Assembly (NCBI RefSeq): GCF_008329945.1
Contig: NZ_CP035807.1
Location: 3,162,001-3,226,000 of the forward strand
Direction: 5' to 3'
From: Thiospirochaeta perfilievii
GTDB taxonomy: Bacteria > Spirochaetota > Spirochaetia > DSM-2461
DNA: 64,000 nucleotides
Positions 34,351 through 62,597 of the stretch are shown here, in pieces. Under the pieces are notes generated by a model. The model was not told the origin of the DNA and did not search any database. It was given only the letters and a program-made list of their open reading frames with translations. The translations under genes were made by a program, and so were the position numbers. The stretch's first letter is position 1, and each line of letters begins with the position of its first letter.

Positions 34351-35534
34351 TTAAATTACACTCTTTTTTCTAAGTATAATCAAGATTACAGATCCTGAAA
34401 TTAGAGTAGTAACACCCATTATTGTTAATGCCTGCTGAATATTATAAATATCTGCAGTCCATCCAATAACAGGTATTATTACAGCATATATTAATCTACC
34501 TATAAAGCTTTCTGCAGATAAGACAGTAGCTCTCATACTAGATGTTGTTAGCTGATTTATATAATCAGTTACTGCTGCATTTTTAAAACCTCGTACAAAT
34601 TGCTGTATATAACAAAATGTAAAACTGAATAAAAAAATTAAGTTACTCATTAATAAATAACTTCCACCTATTAACAATGTTAGCATTATTAAAGAGTACT
34701 TTTGACCTAGTTTTTGCTCAATTTTATATGCTAATTTTGAAGAAAATCCTGCAACTATCTGAAAACTTGCAAATACAATCCCAAAATATATTATATCTAA
34801 GCCTGTTACTTTGAAATATGGCTGATATAACCATAGGGCTGACTGATTAAATGCATATATAACACCAGAATATATTATAATCCAACGAAGTTTTTTATTT
34901 TCAATTAGTGATATTTTTAAAATTTTAAATAGTTCTTTTGTATAACCTTTTTCAACGATAATTTTATTTCTTTCAGGTTCATGCATAGTAAATATCAGTG
35001 GGATGATTAAAGAAAAAAATGGGATTGTAGCGTAAAAAGTATATCTTAGATTATATTTACCTATTACTCCTCCTAGGGAATTTGCAACAGCTAATGCAAT
35101 CAATCCATAAAAAAGAGCATTACCCCATATTTTTTTATATTTTTCCTCTTCTCCTAGATTCTGTAGAGTGTCAAAAAGAAAGGCAGAAGCAGTACCAGAA
35201 GTAAATGAAACATGAAGAGCAAAAAATGATTCTGCAATAAGAAAGTGAAAAAAGCTATGCCCAATACCATAGGAGACTATTGCTAATACCCCATAAATCC
35301 TGCAATTAACAAAGTATTCTTTCTACCATATATATCCGCAAAATAACCAGAAGGAATTTCAAGAATAACTGTTAATAAAGCAAAGAAAGATTGTAAAAGC
35401 ATAATTTCAGTAAGGTTAAGGCCATTCTCTTGCCAAAATAAAACCAAAATGGGAACTGAAAAAAACATGCCCATAAGTATTTTATATAAATAGAATTTTT
35501 TTATGTTTTGTTTTAACTTTTTATTTTCTATCAT
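34351..35534 (-). pseudogene. MFS transporter with a single frameshift
   Basis: The first part (35534 to about 35290) encodes an MFS N-terminus with the loop motif GYFADIYGRKNTL and stops at a TAG at 35283-35285. Moving to the -1 frame at a run of four G (C on the plus strand, 35289-35292) restores an uninterrupted frame (SFTSGTASAFLFDTL, then ALAVANSLGG) to the stop at 34351. The sum is about 394 residues, normal for a 12-helix transporter. One missing base explains everything. It may be a recent pseudogene or a sequence error. It lies 23 bases after the DUF134 regulator gene. Confidence 0.85.
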
Positions 35535-57289: not shown

Positions 57290-58045
57290 GTGAAAGTTTT
57301 TATAACAGTGTTACTATTTATAACTCCCCTATTTATATATTCACAAAATAGTACAATAAAACTTTTAACTGATGATAATTTTCCACCTTACTCCTATGTT
57401 GTAGATGATAAAATTGTTGGTTACGATATTGATGTTATTAGGGAGATAGAGTCTAGATTGGGACTTACTATCTCTGTTGAGGCTGTTCCATGGAATAGGT
57501 TATTAAAATACATTGAATCTGGACAGGTTGATGGTGGTTTTTCTCTATTTAAAAATAGTGAAAGAGAGTCATGGGCAAAATTTACTTCTATACCAATTCA
57601 TCGTAGTCGATTTACAATTTTTACTAGAAAAGATAATCAGTTTGTTTTTAATAACTTAGATGATTTAATTGGTAAAAATATTGGATTAGATAGAGGCTTT
57701 TTAATTAGTGATGAGTTTGATGAGCTAAAGAGTAATAAAACCATTAGTGTTATAGAGTCTGAAGATGCATCAATTAATTTTAAACTTTTAGAGAATAAAA
57801 GAATCGATTGTTATATAGGAAACTATTTTACAAGTCTATATGTACTTAATATGTTAGATAAGTTAGATGAGTTTTCAATAATAAAGAGGGATTTAGTTCC
57901 AAGTAGAAGTGCATACTTAGTATTCTCTAAAAAGAGTAAAATAGGGAATATTGATGCACTAATAGCTAGGATTACTAAAACTTTAGAAGAACTAGAGATT
58001 GATGGTACTTTAGAGCGTATATCTAAAAAATATATCTCAAACTAA
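57290..58045 (+). CDS. Extracellular family 3 solute-binding protein
   Basis: The protein has a signal peptide (about residues 1-18, ending IYSQ) and a family 3 periplasmic binding domain: LLTDDNFPPYSYVVDDKIVGYDIDVIREI, VPWNRLLKYIESGQVDGGF and WAKFTSIPI. This suggests an amino-acid-type ligand. GTG at 57290 is preferred over GTG at 57284 because AAAGGAGGTG overlaps the latter. No ABC permease gene is nearby, so it may be a receptor or an orphan. It overlaps the convergent VOC gene by four bases. Confidence 0.88.
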   Translation: MKVFITVLLFITPLFIYSQNSTIKLLTDDNFPPYSYVVDDKIVGYDIDVIREIESRLGLTISVEAVPWNRLLKYIESGQVDGGFSLFKNSERESWAKFTSIPIHRSRFTIFTRKDNQFVFNNLDDLIGKNIGLDRGFLISDEFDELKSNKTISVIESEDASINFKLLENKRIDCYIGNYFTSLYVLNMLDKLDEFSIIKRDLVPSRSAYLVFSKKSKIGNIDALIARITKTLEELEIDGTLERISKKYISN

Positions 58046-58404
58046 ACTTCCTCTACAAAAGATATGGCAAGCTTATTAGGATCATAAAACCTTGCAAACT
58101 TTAGACCATTTGGTAGTACAATAGAATCAAAGGGTATTCCAATATCATTCAGCTTTTGATTTATCATTTCAATATTTTTAACTTGAAATGTCAATGTTAT
58201 AGATGAGTTAGAGTTATCTATATCAGTTCTCTGTTTACTCTCAATTAATTCAATGTTTAATCCTGTCTGGTTTGATAAAAAAGTTATAACCATATCATCA
58301 TTTGGAGAAAATGTATGATCTACTTTAAAATCTAAAACTTCAGAGTAAAATTTTGTTGACTCTTCTAGGGAGTTAACACCTATAGTTACAATGTTTTTTT
58401 GCAT
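58042..58404 (-). CDS. Glyoxalase/VOC-superfamily protein
   Basis: The 120-residue protein has the VOC beta-alpha-beta-beta-beta pattern: NIVTIGVNSLEESTKFYSEVLDF in the first half and ITLTFQVKNIEMINQKLNDIGI in the second, ending with ARFYDPNKLAISFVE. The final Glu (EE) fits the metal-ligand position. The substrate is unknown. CGGAGG precedes the ATG. Confidence 0.82.
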   Translation of the reverse strand: MQKNIVTIGVNSLEESTKFYSEVLDFKVDHTFSPNDDMVITFLSNQTGLNIELIESKQRTDIDNSNSSITLTFQVKNIEMINQKLNDIGIPFDSIVLPNGLKFARFYDPNKLAISFVEEV

Positions 58405-58459
58405 AAATTAACCTCCGTTTTATATATATTATCACATATCTATATAATTTCCCACTCCT

Positions 58460-58531
58460 CTATATCTCCCTCCATAGAGCTACTAAACCCTTTGAGTCTA
58501 AATATTTTAGATTTATTGACCATAATCTCAT
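58460..58531 (-). pseudogene. N-terminal remnant of a pyrimidine-dimer DNA glycosylase gene
   Basis: A 23-codon frame with GAGGTG before the ATG encodes MRLWSINLKYLDSKGLVALW-RE-like sequence. This matches the N-terminus of the T4 endonuclease V/Pyr_excise family, which repairs UV-induced dimers and normally has about 140 residues. The frame stops after WREI and the rest of the family sequence is absent in all frames nearby. It looks like a gene cut by deletion. The adjacent plus-strand operon has genes often found with light or UV responses. Confidence 0.7.
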
Positions 58532-58600
58532 AATCACCTCTAATTAATATTTCAAAACGTTATTTATTTTAGGTTAACATTAAGTTTTAGACAAGTTGTT

Positions 58601-58629
58601 TGACATTAATATCTCGATATGTGATAATA
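58601..58629 (+). promoter_or_regulatory. Strong promoter with an inverted repeat in the spacer
   Basis: TTGACA at 58601-58606 and GATAAT at 58624-58629 are 17 bases apart. The spacer contains ATATC-TC-GATAT (58610-58621). Transcription would begin about 65 bases before the ATG at 58703. The operator-like repeat between the two boxes could bind a regulator. Confidence 0.65.
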
Positions 58630-58702: not shown

Positions 58703-59133
58703 ATGAAATTAAATAAAGAGCTAGTATTAGAGCTTTGGTCTAAAACCTACAATACAAAAGGAAAGCCTGATTGGACCCATATTTTTCCTTATTATGATGA
58801 AAATATAATCTTTCAGGACTCTATTCAAAGGATAGAGGGAAAGATGGATTTTATAGATATGTGTAATCGATTAACCAAGCGCTGTAAAGAGTTAAATATG
58901 GAAATAGTAGATATAACCCAGGAGGGTGATATAATTATTTTTGATTGGATTATGACTATGATGTTTAAAAAATATCCAAGCACTCCTATGTATGGTGCAA
59001 CAAAGCTCACTTTAGATAGTGAGGGTATTATAGTAGAGCAGAGGGACTATTACGACATGTGGGGGATATCTTTAATAATATTCCAAGGTTTGGTAAAAGT
59101 TATAGAAAGTTTCTAAAAAAGAAGTTTGGGTGA
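58703..59133 (+). pseudogene. SnoaL/NTF2-like protein, frameshifted near its 3' end
   Basis: The frame encodes a small NTF2-fold protein (DENIIFQDSIQRIEG, FDWIMTMMFKKYPSTPMYGATKLTLDSEGIIVEQRDYYDMWG). At a run of five G (59061-59065) the frame changes to a family-unlike tail that stops at 59116. One more G gives DIFNNIPRFGKSYRKFLKKKFG, which is the expected C-terminus, with a TGA at 59131-59133 just three bases before the next gene. The enzyme role is unknown; in other bacteria this family sits in light-response gene clusters. Confidence 0.8.
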
Positions 59134-59136
59134 TAT

Positions 59137-60068
59137 ATGAATTTAAAAGCAAGTGATTGGTTAGGTTTTTTATATACAAGTAGGCTAAAGCAGAAGAGTT
59201 GTAATTTACAAGCTGATGGGAAGTGGGTTCTAATTACAGGGGCTACATCTGGGATAGGTTATATAACATCATTAAAATATGCCTCAATGGGTACTAATAT
59301 TATTCTTTTAGTCCGGAATCCTATAACAGGTAGCAAACTTAAAGAGAAGTTAGAGAGGGATTACTCTATTTTATGTAAGCTTTATATAGCCGATTTTGAA
59401 GATTTAGAAAGCGTAAAAAAAAGTGCGGAATTAATAGTAGAGCAAAATAGGGTTATTGATATTTTAATTAATAATGCAGGTGCTTATAGAACAAAAAAAG
59501 ATTACTTGGTAATGGGGTCGACTCAGTTTTTACTGTTAACCATTTAGCTGCATTTTTAATAACAAACATATTGGTAAAATCCCTAAGAAATAGTGATAAC
59601 CCAAGGGTAATTAATGTGAATTCCGAGGGACATCGTTTTGGTAATGTTAAAATAAATGATCTAGGATTTAATAAAAGGTTATATAGTGGTTTACGTAGTT
59701 ATGGTGCATCAAAAACAGCACAGCTACACTGTATGTATATACTAAAAGATATTTTGGTAAAAGATAATATTACAATAAATTCTATGCACCCAGGAGCTGT
59801 TAGGTCAAATATTGGCAGTCATAGTGGAAGACTCTATAACTTTTATATGAATAATGTATTAAAGTTTTTTTTAAAGGATCCAAAAATTTCTGCTAATGCA
59901 CTCTACTATCTAGGTGTAAGCCCAGATATGTTAGGGGTTTCTGGTAATTTCTATAATTTAACAAACAAAGAAATTCCTGCACCCCATGGGCAAAAGTCAA
60001 ACTTCTCTGTGGAAGTATATAATAAAAGTTGTGAATTAACAGAAGTAGGGGGATATGGTGATAAATGA
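59137..60068 (+). pseudogene. Short-chain dehydrogenase/reductase with a frameshift
   Basis: The first part has the Rossmann motif ITGATSGIG (about residues 34-42) and ILINNAGAY, and ends at 59547. The -1 frame reads GVDSVFTVNHLAAFLITNILVKSLRNSDN, then SEGHRFG and the catalytic region YGASKTA through the stop at 60068. The shift point is the seven-A run at 59493-59499 or the four-G run at 59514-59517. The restored protein would be about 310 residues. The next gene overlaps by 14 bases. Confidence 0.85.
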
Positions 60069-61014
60069 GTTTGTTAAACCAAAAGTTGGAATTAGTACAT
60101 GTCTATTAGGTGAGGCTGTTAGATATAATGGTGGGCATAAATTAGACCACTACATAAGGGATACCCTAGGGAAATTTGTAGACTTTGTACCAATATGTCC
60201 TGAAGTAGAAGCTGGTTTTGGTACACCTAGGGAGGCTCTACATCTCCATGAGACTGAAAATGGAGTTGTTATGCTTACTGAAAAAAGTAAGGAAGATTTA
60301 ACAGAAAAAATGACATCCTGGAGTAGGAATAAGTTAAAAGAGATAGAGGATATAGAGTTGTGTGGTTATATCTTTAAATCTAAGTCCCCTAGTTGTGGAG
60401 TTTATAGAGCTAGAATCCAGAGAGAGGAAAAAGGAGTTAATCTAAATGGTCGTGGACTTTTTGCCCAGGAGTTTATCAGTGCCTACCCACAACTAATTGT
60501 AGAAGAAGAGGGGAGACTACATGACCCTGTAATTAGAGATAACTTTATACAGAATATTTTTATTAATCATAGATGGAATGAGCTTAATAAAAATAGAAGT
60601 ATAAGGGGATTAATGAAGTTTCACGAATCTTTAAAATATTCTCTTATGTCCCATAGTCCTAGGATACTTAAGGAGATGGGGCCAATTGTTGCCAACTCTA
60701 ATAAAATTGATACAGATGAAGTATTTGATCTATATAAGGTAAAACTTGTTGAAGCTTTAAAAGAGTTAAGCGACAAAAAGAAGAATAAAAATGTTTTAGA
60801 TCATATAATGGGATATTTTAAAAATAATTTAGATAAAAGTGAGAAAGCCGAACTAAAAGAGGTTATAAATAATTATTATAATGGATTGTTACCTATAATT
60901 GTTCCAATTACACTTTTGAATCACTATGTAAAAAAGTATGATGATATTTATTTACAGGGGCAGTTTTATCTAAATCCTCACCCACTTGAGTTAATGTTAC
61001 GTAATCATGTTTAA
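60055..61014 (+). CDS. DUF523-DUF1722 protein (YbgA-type)
   Basis: The 319-residue protein has an N-terminal DUF523 domain (VGISTCLLGEAVRYNGGHK, CPEVEAGFGTPREALHL, SKSPSCG) with conserved cysteines. A C-terminal DUF1722/YbgA domain follows (NHRWNELNKNRSIRGLMKFHESLKYSLMSHSP). In other bacteria it is often beside photolyase genes. The substrate is unknown; the cysteine set resembles a 4Fe-4S or thiol site. AGGGGG lies a few bases upstream of the ATG. Confidence 0.9.
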   Translation: MVINEFVKPKVGISTCLLGEAVRYNGGHKLDHYIRDTLGKFVDFVPICPEVEAGFGTPREALHLHETENGVVMLTEKSKEDLTEKMTSWSRNKLKEIEDIELCGYIFKSKSPSCGVYRARIQREEKGVNLNGRGLFAQEFISAYPQLIVEEEGRLHDPVIRDNFIQNIFINHRWNELNKNRSIRGLMKFHESLKYSLMSHSPRILKEMGPIVANSNKIDTDEVFDLYKVKLVEALKELSDKKKNKNVLDHIMGYFKNNLDKSEKAELKEVINNYYNGLLPIIVPITLLNHYVKKYDDIYLQGQFYLNPHPLELMLRNHV

Positions 61015-61025
61015 GGATATTTAAA

Positions 61026-62597
61026 ATGAATAGAGTAGATACTGTAGTTGTAGGTGGTGGTATAGCAGGTTTAACCGCTACTTCTTATATAGCACAAAAG
61101 GGAATAAGTGTTTCTCTTTATGAGAAAGGTCACTATTTTGGCGGTTTAGTGAACTCCTTTAAAAGAGGGGATTTCACCTTTGATGGAGGACTTAGGTCAA
61201 TAGAGAACTCTGGAATTGTATTTCCTATGTTAAGGGAGTTAGGTATCGATATAGAGTTTGTAAAGAGCCATGTCTCCCTAGTTGTTGGTAAAAATGTTCT
61301 TAAATTAAACGGAACAAATAGTTTAGATGAGTATAAAGACTTCTTAATTGAGGAGTTCCCAAATAATAAAATAGAGATTATCTCAATTATAAAATCTATT
61401 AAAAAAATTACAGGGTATATGGATATCTTATATGGAATAGATAATCCTCTTTTTTTAGACCCTATAAAAGATAGGGAGTATTTTATTAAGGTTATTACCC
61501 CTTGGATATTTAAGTTTTTATTAACAGTTAATAGGATAGAGTCCCTTAACCTACCAGTAAATAGTTATTTAGAGAAGTTTACTAAAAACCAAGCTTTAAT
61601 AGATAATATTTCCCAACATTTTTTTAAGGATACCCCCACCTCCTTTGCCCTAAGTTATTTCTCTTTATACAATGATTATAATTATCCAATAGGAGGAACA
61701 GAAGTACTTCCTAAAAAACTAGAAGAGTTCTGCATTCTTAATGGGGCTGAACTACTTAGTAAGAGGGGTGTTGTTGAGGTTAATCCTGAACAGAAGTATA
61801 TCGAAGATGAGTATGGGGAGAGAAAATATTACAATAATCTTATTTGGGCCTGTGACTTAAAACAGCTCTATCGTGGGATTAATAAGGATAGTATTAAGAG
61901 TAAGAGCTTAAGGAAGAGGGTTCTAAAAAGGGAGTTAGAGTTAGAACAATTACGAGGTGCAGAGTCGGTTTTTACCCTATATCTCACCCTAGATCTTCCT
62001 CCATCCTATTTTAGTAGTATAGCAACGGAACACTGTTTTTTTACACCAATTAAAGATGGCCTATCTACTCTAAATTTAGAGTTTGATAAGAGTAATAAGC
62101 AGTCTGTTAAAAACTATCTTAGAGAGTATGTAAAGTATAATACCTTTGAAATATCAATCCCATGTTTAAGGGATAGTAATTTAGCTCCTGAGGGTAAATC
62201 AGGGTTAGAGATTAGCATCTTATTTGATTATGATTTAACAAAAAATATTATTGAACAAGGGTGGAAGAGGGAGTTTAAAGAGTATATGGAGGACCTTTTA
62301 ATTGAGCAATTAAATACTCTTTATCCAAAATTAAAAAAGAGCATTATTAAGAGATTTTCTTCTACTCCCTTAACAGTTGAACGGTATACTAGTAGTAGTG
62401 ATGGGGCAATAATAGGATGGGCCTTTACTAACCCTAAAATGCCTGTTATTCATAAATTCCTACAGGTTGCTAAGTCTGTAAAAACTCCTATAGACTCTGT
62501 TTATCAGTGTGGACAGTGGACATATAGTCCTGCAGGGCTACCTATATCCATTTTAACTGGGAAATTGGCGGCTAACAAAATTCTTAAGAAATATTAG
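61026..62597 (+). CDS. FAD-dependent amine-oxidase/phytoene-desaturase-like oxidoreductase
   Basis: The 523-residue flavoprotein starts with the FAD dinucleotide fold VVGGGIAGLTATSYIAQKG and SLYEKGHYFGGLVNSF. It then resembles CrtI- or retinol-saturase-like proteins (YPIGGTEVLPKKLEEF, and a C-terminal CGQWTYSPAGLPISILTGKLAANKI). It is the last gene of the four-gene unit. The neighbouring genes fit a light or oxidative-stress lipid role, but this is inference. A weak hairpin follows the stop. Confidence 0.85.
   Translation: MNRVDTVVVGGGIAGLTATSYIAQKGISVSLYEKGHYFGGLVNSFKRGDFTFDGGLRSIENSGIVFPMLRELGIDIEFVKSHVSLVVGKNVLKLNGTNSLDEYKDFLIEEFPNNKIEIISIIKSIKKITGYMDILYGIDNPLFLDPIKDREYFIKVITPWIFKFLLTVNRIESLNLPVNSYLEKFTKNQALIDNISQHFFKDTPTSFALSYFSLYNDYNYPIGGTEVLPKKLEEFCILNGAELLSKRGVVEVNPEQKYIEDEYGERKYYNNLIWACDLKQLYRGINKDSIKSKSLRKRVLKRELELEQLRGAESVFTLYLTLDLPPSYFSSIATEHCFFTPIKDGLSTLNLEFDKSNKQSVKNYLREYVKYNTFEISIPCLRDSNLAPEGKSGLEISILFDYDLTKNIIEQGWKREFKEYMEDLLIEQLNTLYPKLKKSIIKRFSSTPLTVERYTSSSDGAIIGWAFTNPKMPVIHKFLQVAKSVKTPIDSVYQCGQWTYSPAGLPISILTGKLAANKILKKY

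Follow-up and report, generated by a model that had tools for sequence, protein, structure and literature searches.

The window, a 64,000-nucleotide stretch of the Thiospirochaeta perfilievii genome, contains both ends of a gene of the Pyr_excise family (PF03013), which comprises T4 endonuclease V-type pyrimidine-dimer DNA glycosylases. The two remnants lie between a glyoxalase/VOC-family gene and an operon encoded on the opposite strand:

58042-58404, minus strand: glyoxalase/VOC-family gene (PF12681, PF00903), directly 3' of the relic
58440-58472, minus strand: 3' remnant of the Pyr_excise gene, the last ten codons (EGDIEEWEII) and TAG, in a different frame from the 5' remnant; 27.8 bits on the tail profile
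58466-58472, minus strand: deletion junction GAGGGAG, fitting Trp-Arg-Glu and Glu-Gly-Asp codons alike (overlap of 4-7 nt; putative position of the break)
58466-58531, minus strand: 5' remnant of the Pyr_excise gene, codons 1-22, MRLWSINLKYLDSKGLVALWRE; PF03013 positions 1-27
58532-58545, minus strand: ribosome-site-like sequence, AGAGGTG, of the dead Pyr_excise gene

The minus strand at 58531-58460 encodes MRLWSINLKYLDSKGLVALWREI followed by a stop, the frame remaining open past codon 22 up to the TAG that ends at 58460. In a profile search of the window, this peptide matches positions 1-27 of PF03013 (E = 1.9e-5, 25.4 bits, cut-off 23); in the whole-genome search it is the sole Pyr_excise match and falls slightly below the cut-off (E = 4.3e-4, 22.6 bits). 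The catalytic domain (about 80 profile positions) is thus interrupted, with only positions 1-27 matching before the stop, and a functional enzyme from the relic is impossible. The relic is identical to the intact gene of one congener, Spirochaetales ZodW_Metabat.93 (G001), at 19 of 22 residues, and to that of the other, Spirochaetales SZUA-382 (G002), at 18 of 22. By eye, the bases just 5' of the relic are also similar to those preceding the intact gene in G002. The original prediction of a relic at these coordinates, with 22 N-terminal residues and a ribosome site, is borne out by the profile match, the AGAGGTG sequence and the identity with G001. Differences between the relic and the G001 gene, sorted by codon position, number 5, 2 and 8, compared with 4, 1 and 9 between G001 and G002; these similar distributions make the loss look recent.

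The N-terminal motif of the family, MRLWS..P.YLD..GL.A.WRE, is recognizable in the relic, but its proline at position 8 is gone. The relic has leucine at this position, which is proline in 98 of 98 intact sequences, and asparagine at position 7, found there in one of the 98; this set was chosen by N-terminal motifs, so that conservation at those positions is partly built in, with P8 lying outside the selection. Loss of the invariant proline speaks against the idea that the remnant is a working small protein derived from the glycosylase, either the 23-residue peptide or a 27-residue ORF (58523-58440). Such a protein would account for the persistence of the ATG and the ribosome-site-like sequence and for the 19 residues shared with G001. 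A conserved short form of 23 residues, which would speak against a relic, was not found among 61 relatives and 344 genomes of the phylum, where the Pyr_excise matches are full length save for a few broken copies, and directly behind the peptide, out of frame, follow the C-terminal codons of the complete gene. A functional small protein is accordingly rejected as exceedingly improbable.

The rest of the gene, previously taken to be missing, is in fact represented by this C-terminus, EGDIEEWEII-stop, in the other frame. On a profile built from 96 family tails (2 of 98 sequences, in which the tail spacing is not regular, were excluded), the 9-mer MEGDIEEWE reaches 27.8 bits, compared with 16.1 bits for the runner-up among the 127,948 six-frame 9-mers of the window, and none of 7,676,880 simulated 9-mers reached its score. 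The G....WE tail that characterizes 96 of the 98 intact family members is kept, and EGDIEEWE is identical in every letter in 3 of the 96 tails. Simple 3' truncation of the gene is ruled out by the surviving C-terminus. The locus shares the first 22 and the last ten codons with an ordinary family member and differs from it by a deletion of about 115 codons, out of some 147, that leaves the two ends out of frame.

The spacing between the Trp of the WRE motif and the tail Gly is 113-127 codons in 19 intact spirochaete genes (114 in G001 and 116 in G002) and 5 nt in the window, which gives a deletion of 337 nt if the ancestor had the length of the G001 gene, or 343 nt with that of G002. Any ancestral length in whole codons yields a loss that is not divisible by three and hence a tail out of frame. 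The overlap at the junction is at least GGAG when only invariant residues are counted and 7 nt if Glu preceded Gly, as it does in 37 of the 96 tails. The Met before this Glu in the window has a counterpart in none of the 96 tails, which would place the break after the Met. With a single internal deletion of about 337-343 nt, codon 22 would have come to be followed, out of frame, by the last ten codons. The event was probably slippage or recombination involving short repeats, one within the Trp-Arg-Glu codons and the other within the C-terminal Glu-Gly-Asp codons; slippage between such repeats would be the simplest mechanism. The GAGGGAG heptamer is absent from the corresponding places of the G001 and G002 genes.

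The operon that starts upstream of the relic, on the other strand, consists of four genes preceded by a promoter-like site:

58600-58628, plus strand: putative promoter-like site TTGACA-17-GATAAT before the SnoaL-like gene (11 of 12 consensus matches)
58703-59133, plus strand: SnoaL-like gene (PF12680, PF10184), its frame shifted by one base at the G run near 59061; the G001 homologue is intact
59137-60068, plus strand: short-chain dehydrogenase (SDR) gene with PF00106 in both pieces and a one-base frameshift at the G run at 59514; one G002 protein gives a split match
60055-61014, plus strand: RudS-like gene (TudS/DUF523 and DUF1722), intact; PF04463 and PF08349 above cut-off
61026-62597, plus strand: FAD-dependent oxidoreductase gene (amine oxidase/carotenoid desaturase-like), intact; PF01593 and PF13450, below NCBIfam cut-offs

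The spacer of this strong promoter-like site contains a palindrome, ATATCTCGATAT, at 58609-58620 (one in the window, 0.27 expected), a possible operator; in a search by eye for a shared operator, it was not seen upstream of the relatives' genes.

The frameshifts in the SnoaL-like and SDR genes had been read as consistent with the decay of a larger locus. Each gene is one base short at a G run and otherwise open, and a third split of this kind is found 24 kb away in an unrelated MFS transporter gene (35534-34351, minus strand; one base missing at the G run near 35288). By themselves, the frameshifts of the operon do not demonstrate that it is dying; as evidence of decay they are weak, and the reading of them as proof was dropped. 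They may represent sequencing errors or slippage. An ab initio scan of 464 kb of the T. perfilievii genome and 326 kb of G002, which was blind to short pieces and missed the SnoaL and MFS cases, flagged one-base losses at G runs of at least 4 in 11 of 1381 and 7 of 712 cases, respectively, and did not separate the genomes. By eye, 10 of the 11 T. perfilievii cases look like ordinary neighbouring genes and the remaining one is the SDR gene. Searching for split frames with 264 ORFs of G002 yielded 24 pairs and a single split, again the SDR gene, a sample too small for an error rate.

Three one-base losses at G runs within the same 64 kb would fit an assembly or sequencing artefact at the relic as well, with the glycosylase gene intact in the organism and some 340 nt dropped in the same way as the single Gs of the SnoaL-like, SDR and MFS genes. 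We regard this as highly unlikely. The relic lacks an invariant residue, P8; in the 400 kb sampled outside the window, no clear G-run split was evident by the 464-kb scan, which is insensitive to short pieces; and a loss of about 340 nt between repeats no longer than 7 nt is not known as a usual assembly error.

The two genomes available for comparison within the genus, both incomplete (G001, 81%; G002, 71%), contain full Pyr_excise genes beside genes of the operon set, as a comparison with related spirochaetes had been expected to reveal. In G002, the intact gene lies 75 nt from, and divergent to, a gene for an FAD-dependent oxidoreductase that is 63% identical to the one in the window; the remaining FAD homologues of the searched genomes do not exceed 49%. 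In G001, Pyr_excise is followed by RudS with an 8-nt overlap. Directly 5' of this pair, a 170-residue protein without a Pfam or NCBIfam match is encoded (locus L012, contig G001:C16, 99-611, plus strand). No VOC gene was found adjoining Pyr_excise in either congener, and the order VOC, intact Pyr_excise, SnoaL was found in no genome searched. In each of the three genomes that represent the genus, then, the Pyr_excise gene or its relic adjoins members of the operon set, and the presence of intact genes next to operon genes in both congeners supports membership of the glycosylase in the locus. Since the nearest relatives keep the whole gene beside such genes, the relic is best explained by recent gene loss rather than by a new small gene. 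With high confidence, we interpret the relic as a recently killed Pyr_excise gene that suffered one internal, out-of-frame deletion and whose ancestor was linked to a RudS/FAD/SDR/SnoaL locus, the gene in the ancestor being either divergent from this locus or coupled to it.

The operon genes themselves are arranged variably. The SnoaL-SDR-FAD unit is repeated in G001, G002 (as a second copy), G033 and G028; in G013, SnoaL lies beside FAD with an SDR piece close by, and in G026, SDR and FAD are found on a short contig. Among the loci compared, RudS is placed between SDR and FAD in the window only. The RudS-like protein of the window retains Cys16, Cys48 and Cys114, the cluster cysteines, along with the CPE and SPSCG motifs that contain the catalytic Glu and Ser of TudS, at the published places (PMC11417400). 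The T. perfilievii genome also encodes ThiI, the enzyme that makes 4-thiouridine, and the RudS-like protein is predicted, from its sequence, to remove 4-thiouridine from tRNA.

A photolyase and a second glycosylase copy, the repair genes named along with the original prediction, both gave no match in the T. perfilievii genome (PF00875, DNA_photolyase, and PF03441, FAD_binding_7, for the former; Pyr_excise for the latter), so that no photolyase lies in or near the operon; UvdE (PF03851) is likewise unmatched, and UvrC is present. The intact glycosylase would have begun base-excision repair of UV dimers in DNA, RudS would strip UVA-sensitive 4-thiouridine from tRNA, and nucleotide excision repair would now bear the dimer-repair load.

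Beyond the genus, the linkage becomes sparse. Among 26 genomes of the same family (G000-G025), Pyr_excise is found in 8, the relic included, long RudS matches in 12 and photolyase-family matches in 3; in five of these genomes (G004, G009, G017, G018 and G021), Pyr_excise lies away from the operon genes. Around the closest Pyr_excise genes, represented by 80 named loci, the retrieved flanks contain RudS in 2 cases (G001, and Tenebribacter at a distance of 5.7 kb) and the window-type FAD gene in one (G002), when weak SDR matches (22-27% identity) and one 27% photolyase match are not scored as linkage. No general link between Pyr_excise and operons of this kind emerged from these 80 loci, and outside the spirochaetes the linkage is rare (1 of 78 other named loci). 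The few linked loci and the five unlinked genomes of the same family indicate that the linkage is lineage-specific. They are also what would be expected if the relic were real and its place beside the operon accidental, Pyr_excise never having been part of a light or UV locus. This explanation appears rather unlikely given that both congeners are linked in different arrangements, that a photolyase occupies the spot beside RudS in G006 and G015, and that DUF1722 adjoins Pyr_excise in 10 of 344 phylum genomes, the two co-occurring in 17 of the 344 compared with 4.9 expected, without correction for kinship. The proposal that the glycosylase once belonged to a larger UV or light-repair locus is partly supported: the gene is linked to operon genes in both congeners and the DUF523/1722 protein is RudS-like. 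Beyond the lineage the linkage is rare.

In G006 (L286, G006:C355, 1508-3824) and G015 (L287, G015:C209, 2427-4740), two of the three genomes of the family with photolyase-family matches, the photolyase gene extends over the start of RudS; the G006 enzyme is assigned to class II by TIGR00591 with 497 bits, under the model cut-off of 550. Pyr_excise and photolyase occur in one genome in 0 of 61 relatives (2.95 expected, p 0.02) and in 1 of 344 phylum genomes (4.3 expected, p 0.05), counts that are uncorrected for kinship and only suggestive of mutual exclusion.

RudS (TudS-DUF1722, i.e., DUF523/1722) is described as a tRNA 4-thiouridine desulfidase found in light-responsive operons (PMC11417400), and a light-inducible Pseudomonas cluster combines phrB with genes for an SDR and an FAD oxidoreductase (PMC9758184). 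The locus resembles light-responsive RudS operons with photolyase, as in Pseudomonas, in that RudS, SDR and FAD oxidoreductase are grouped, and differs from them in that a dead dimer glycosylase is found in place of the photolyase. By analogy, the operon may have a light-response role in T. perfilievii. As judged by sequence comparison, the relic is a genuine deletion pseudogene, ordinary in itself, and its setting is a lineage-specific variant of a known light-response-type locus. A literature search, with most subscription journals outside its reach, turned up the RudS study but no account of a glycosylase in loci of this kind; a Vibrio cholerae study (PMC5241685) has no bearing on the SnoaL-SDR-FAD set.

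We tentatively suggest, as a possibility that more probably fails than holds, that in this spirochaete lineage Pyr_excise came to stand in for photolyase as the enzyme that repairs DNA alongside RudS in a light/UV-response locus, the repair enzyme of such loci being exchangeable, and that the replacement has since been lost in T. perfilievii. RudS and DUF1722 proteins are encoded beside unrelated UV-dimer repair enzymes, photolyase or glycosylase. This adjacency offers a testable idea: it would tie the removal of 4-thiouridine from tRNA to the repair of dimers in DNA, and the two activities, if this is true, would form a functional pair. T. perfilievii has kept the tRNA branch of such a locus and lost the adjoining dimer-repair gene.

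The ten DUF1722-Pyr_excise pairs of the phylum survey (L290-L299) come from another family of the same class (f25), where a gene for DUF1722 alone lies beside a TIGR02328/Pyr_excise gene, an assignment tested on G218. As in the window, a Pyr_excise-type glycosylase adjoins DUF1722 and broken copies occur, in G049 and G181; these pairs differ from the window in the Pyr_excise subfamily and in the lack of the TudS domain, and their gene order is opposite to that of G001. Relative to G218, an internal stretch of 139 nt is deleted from the copy in G049, and the one in G181 has lost its 3' part; both genomes also carry a full TIGR02328/Pyr_excise copy elsewhere.
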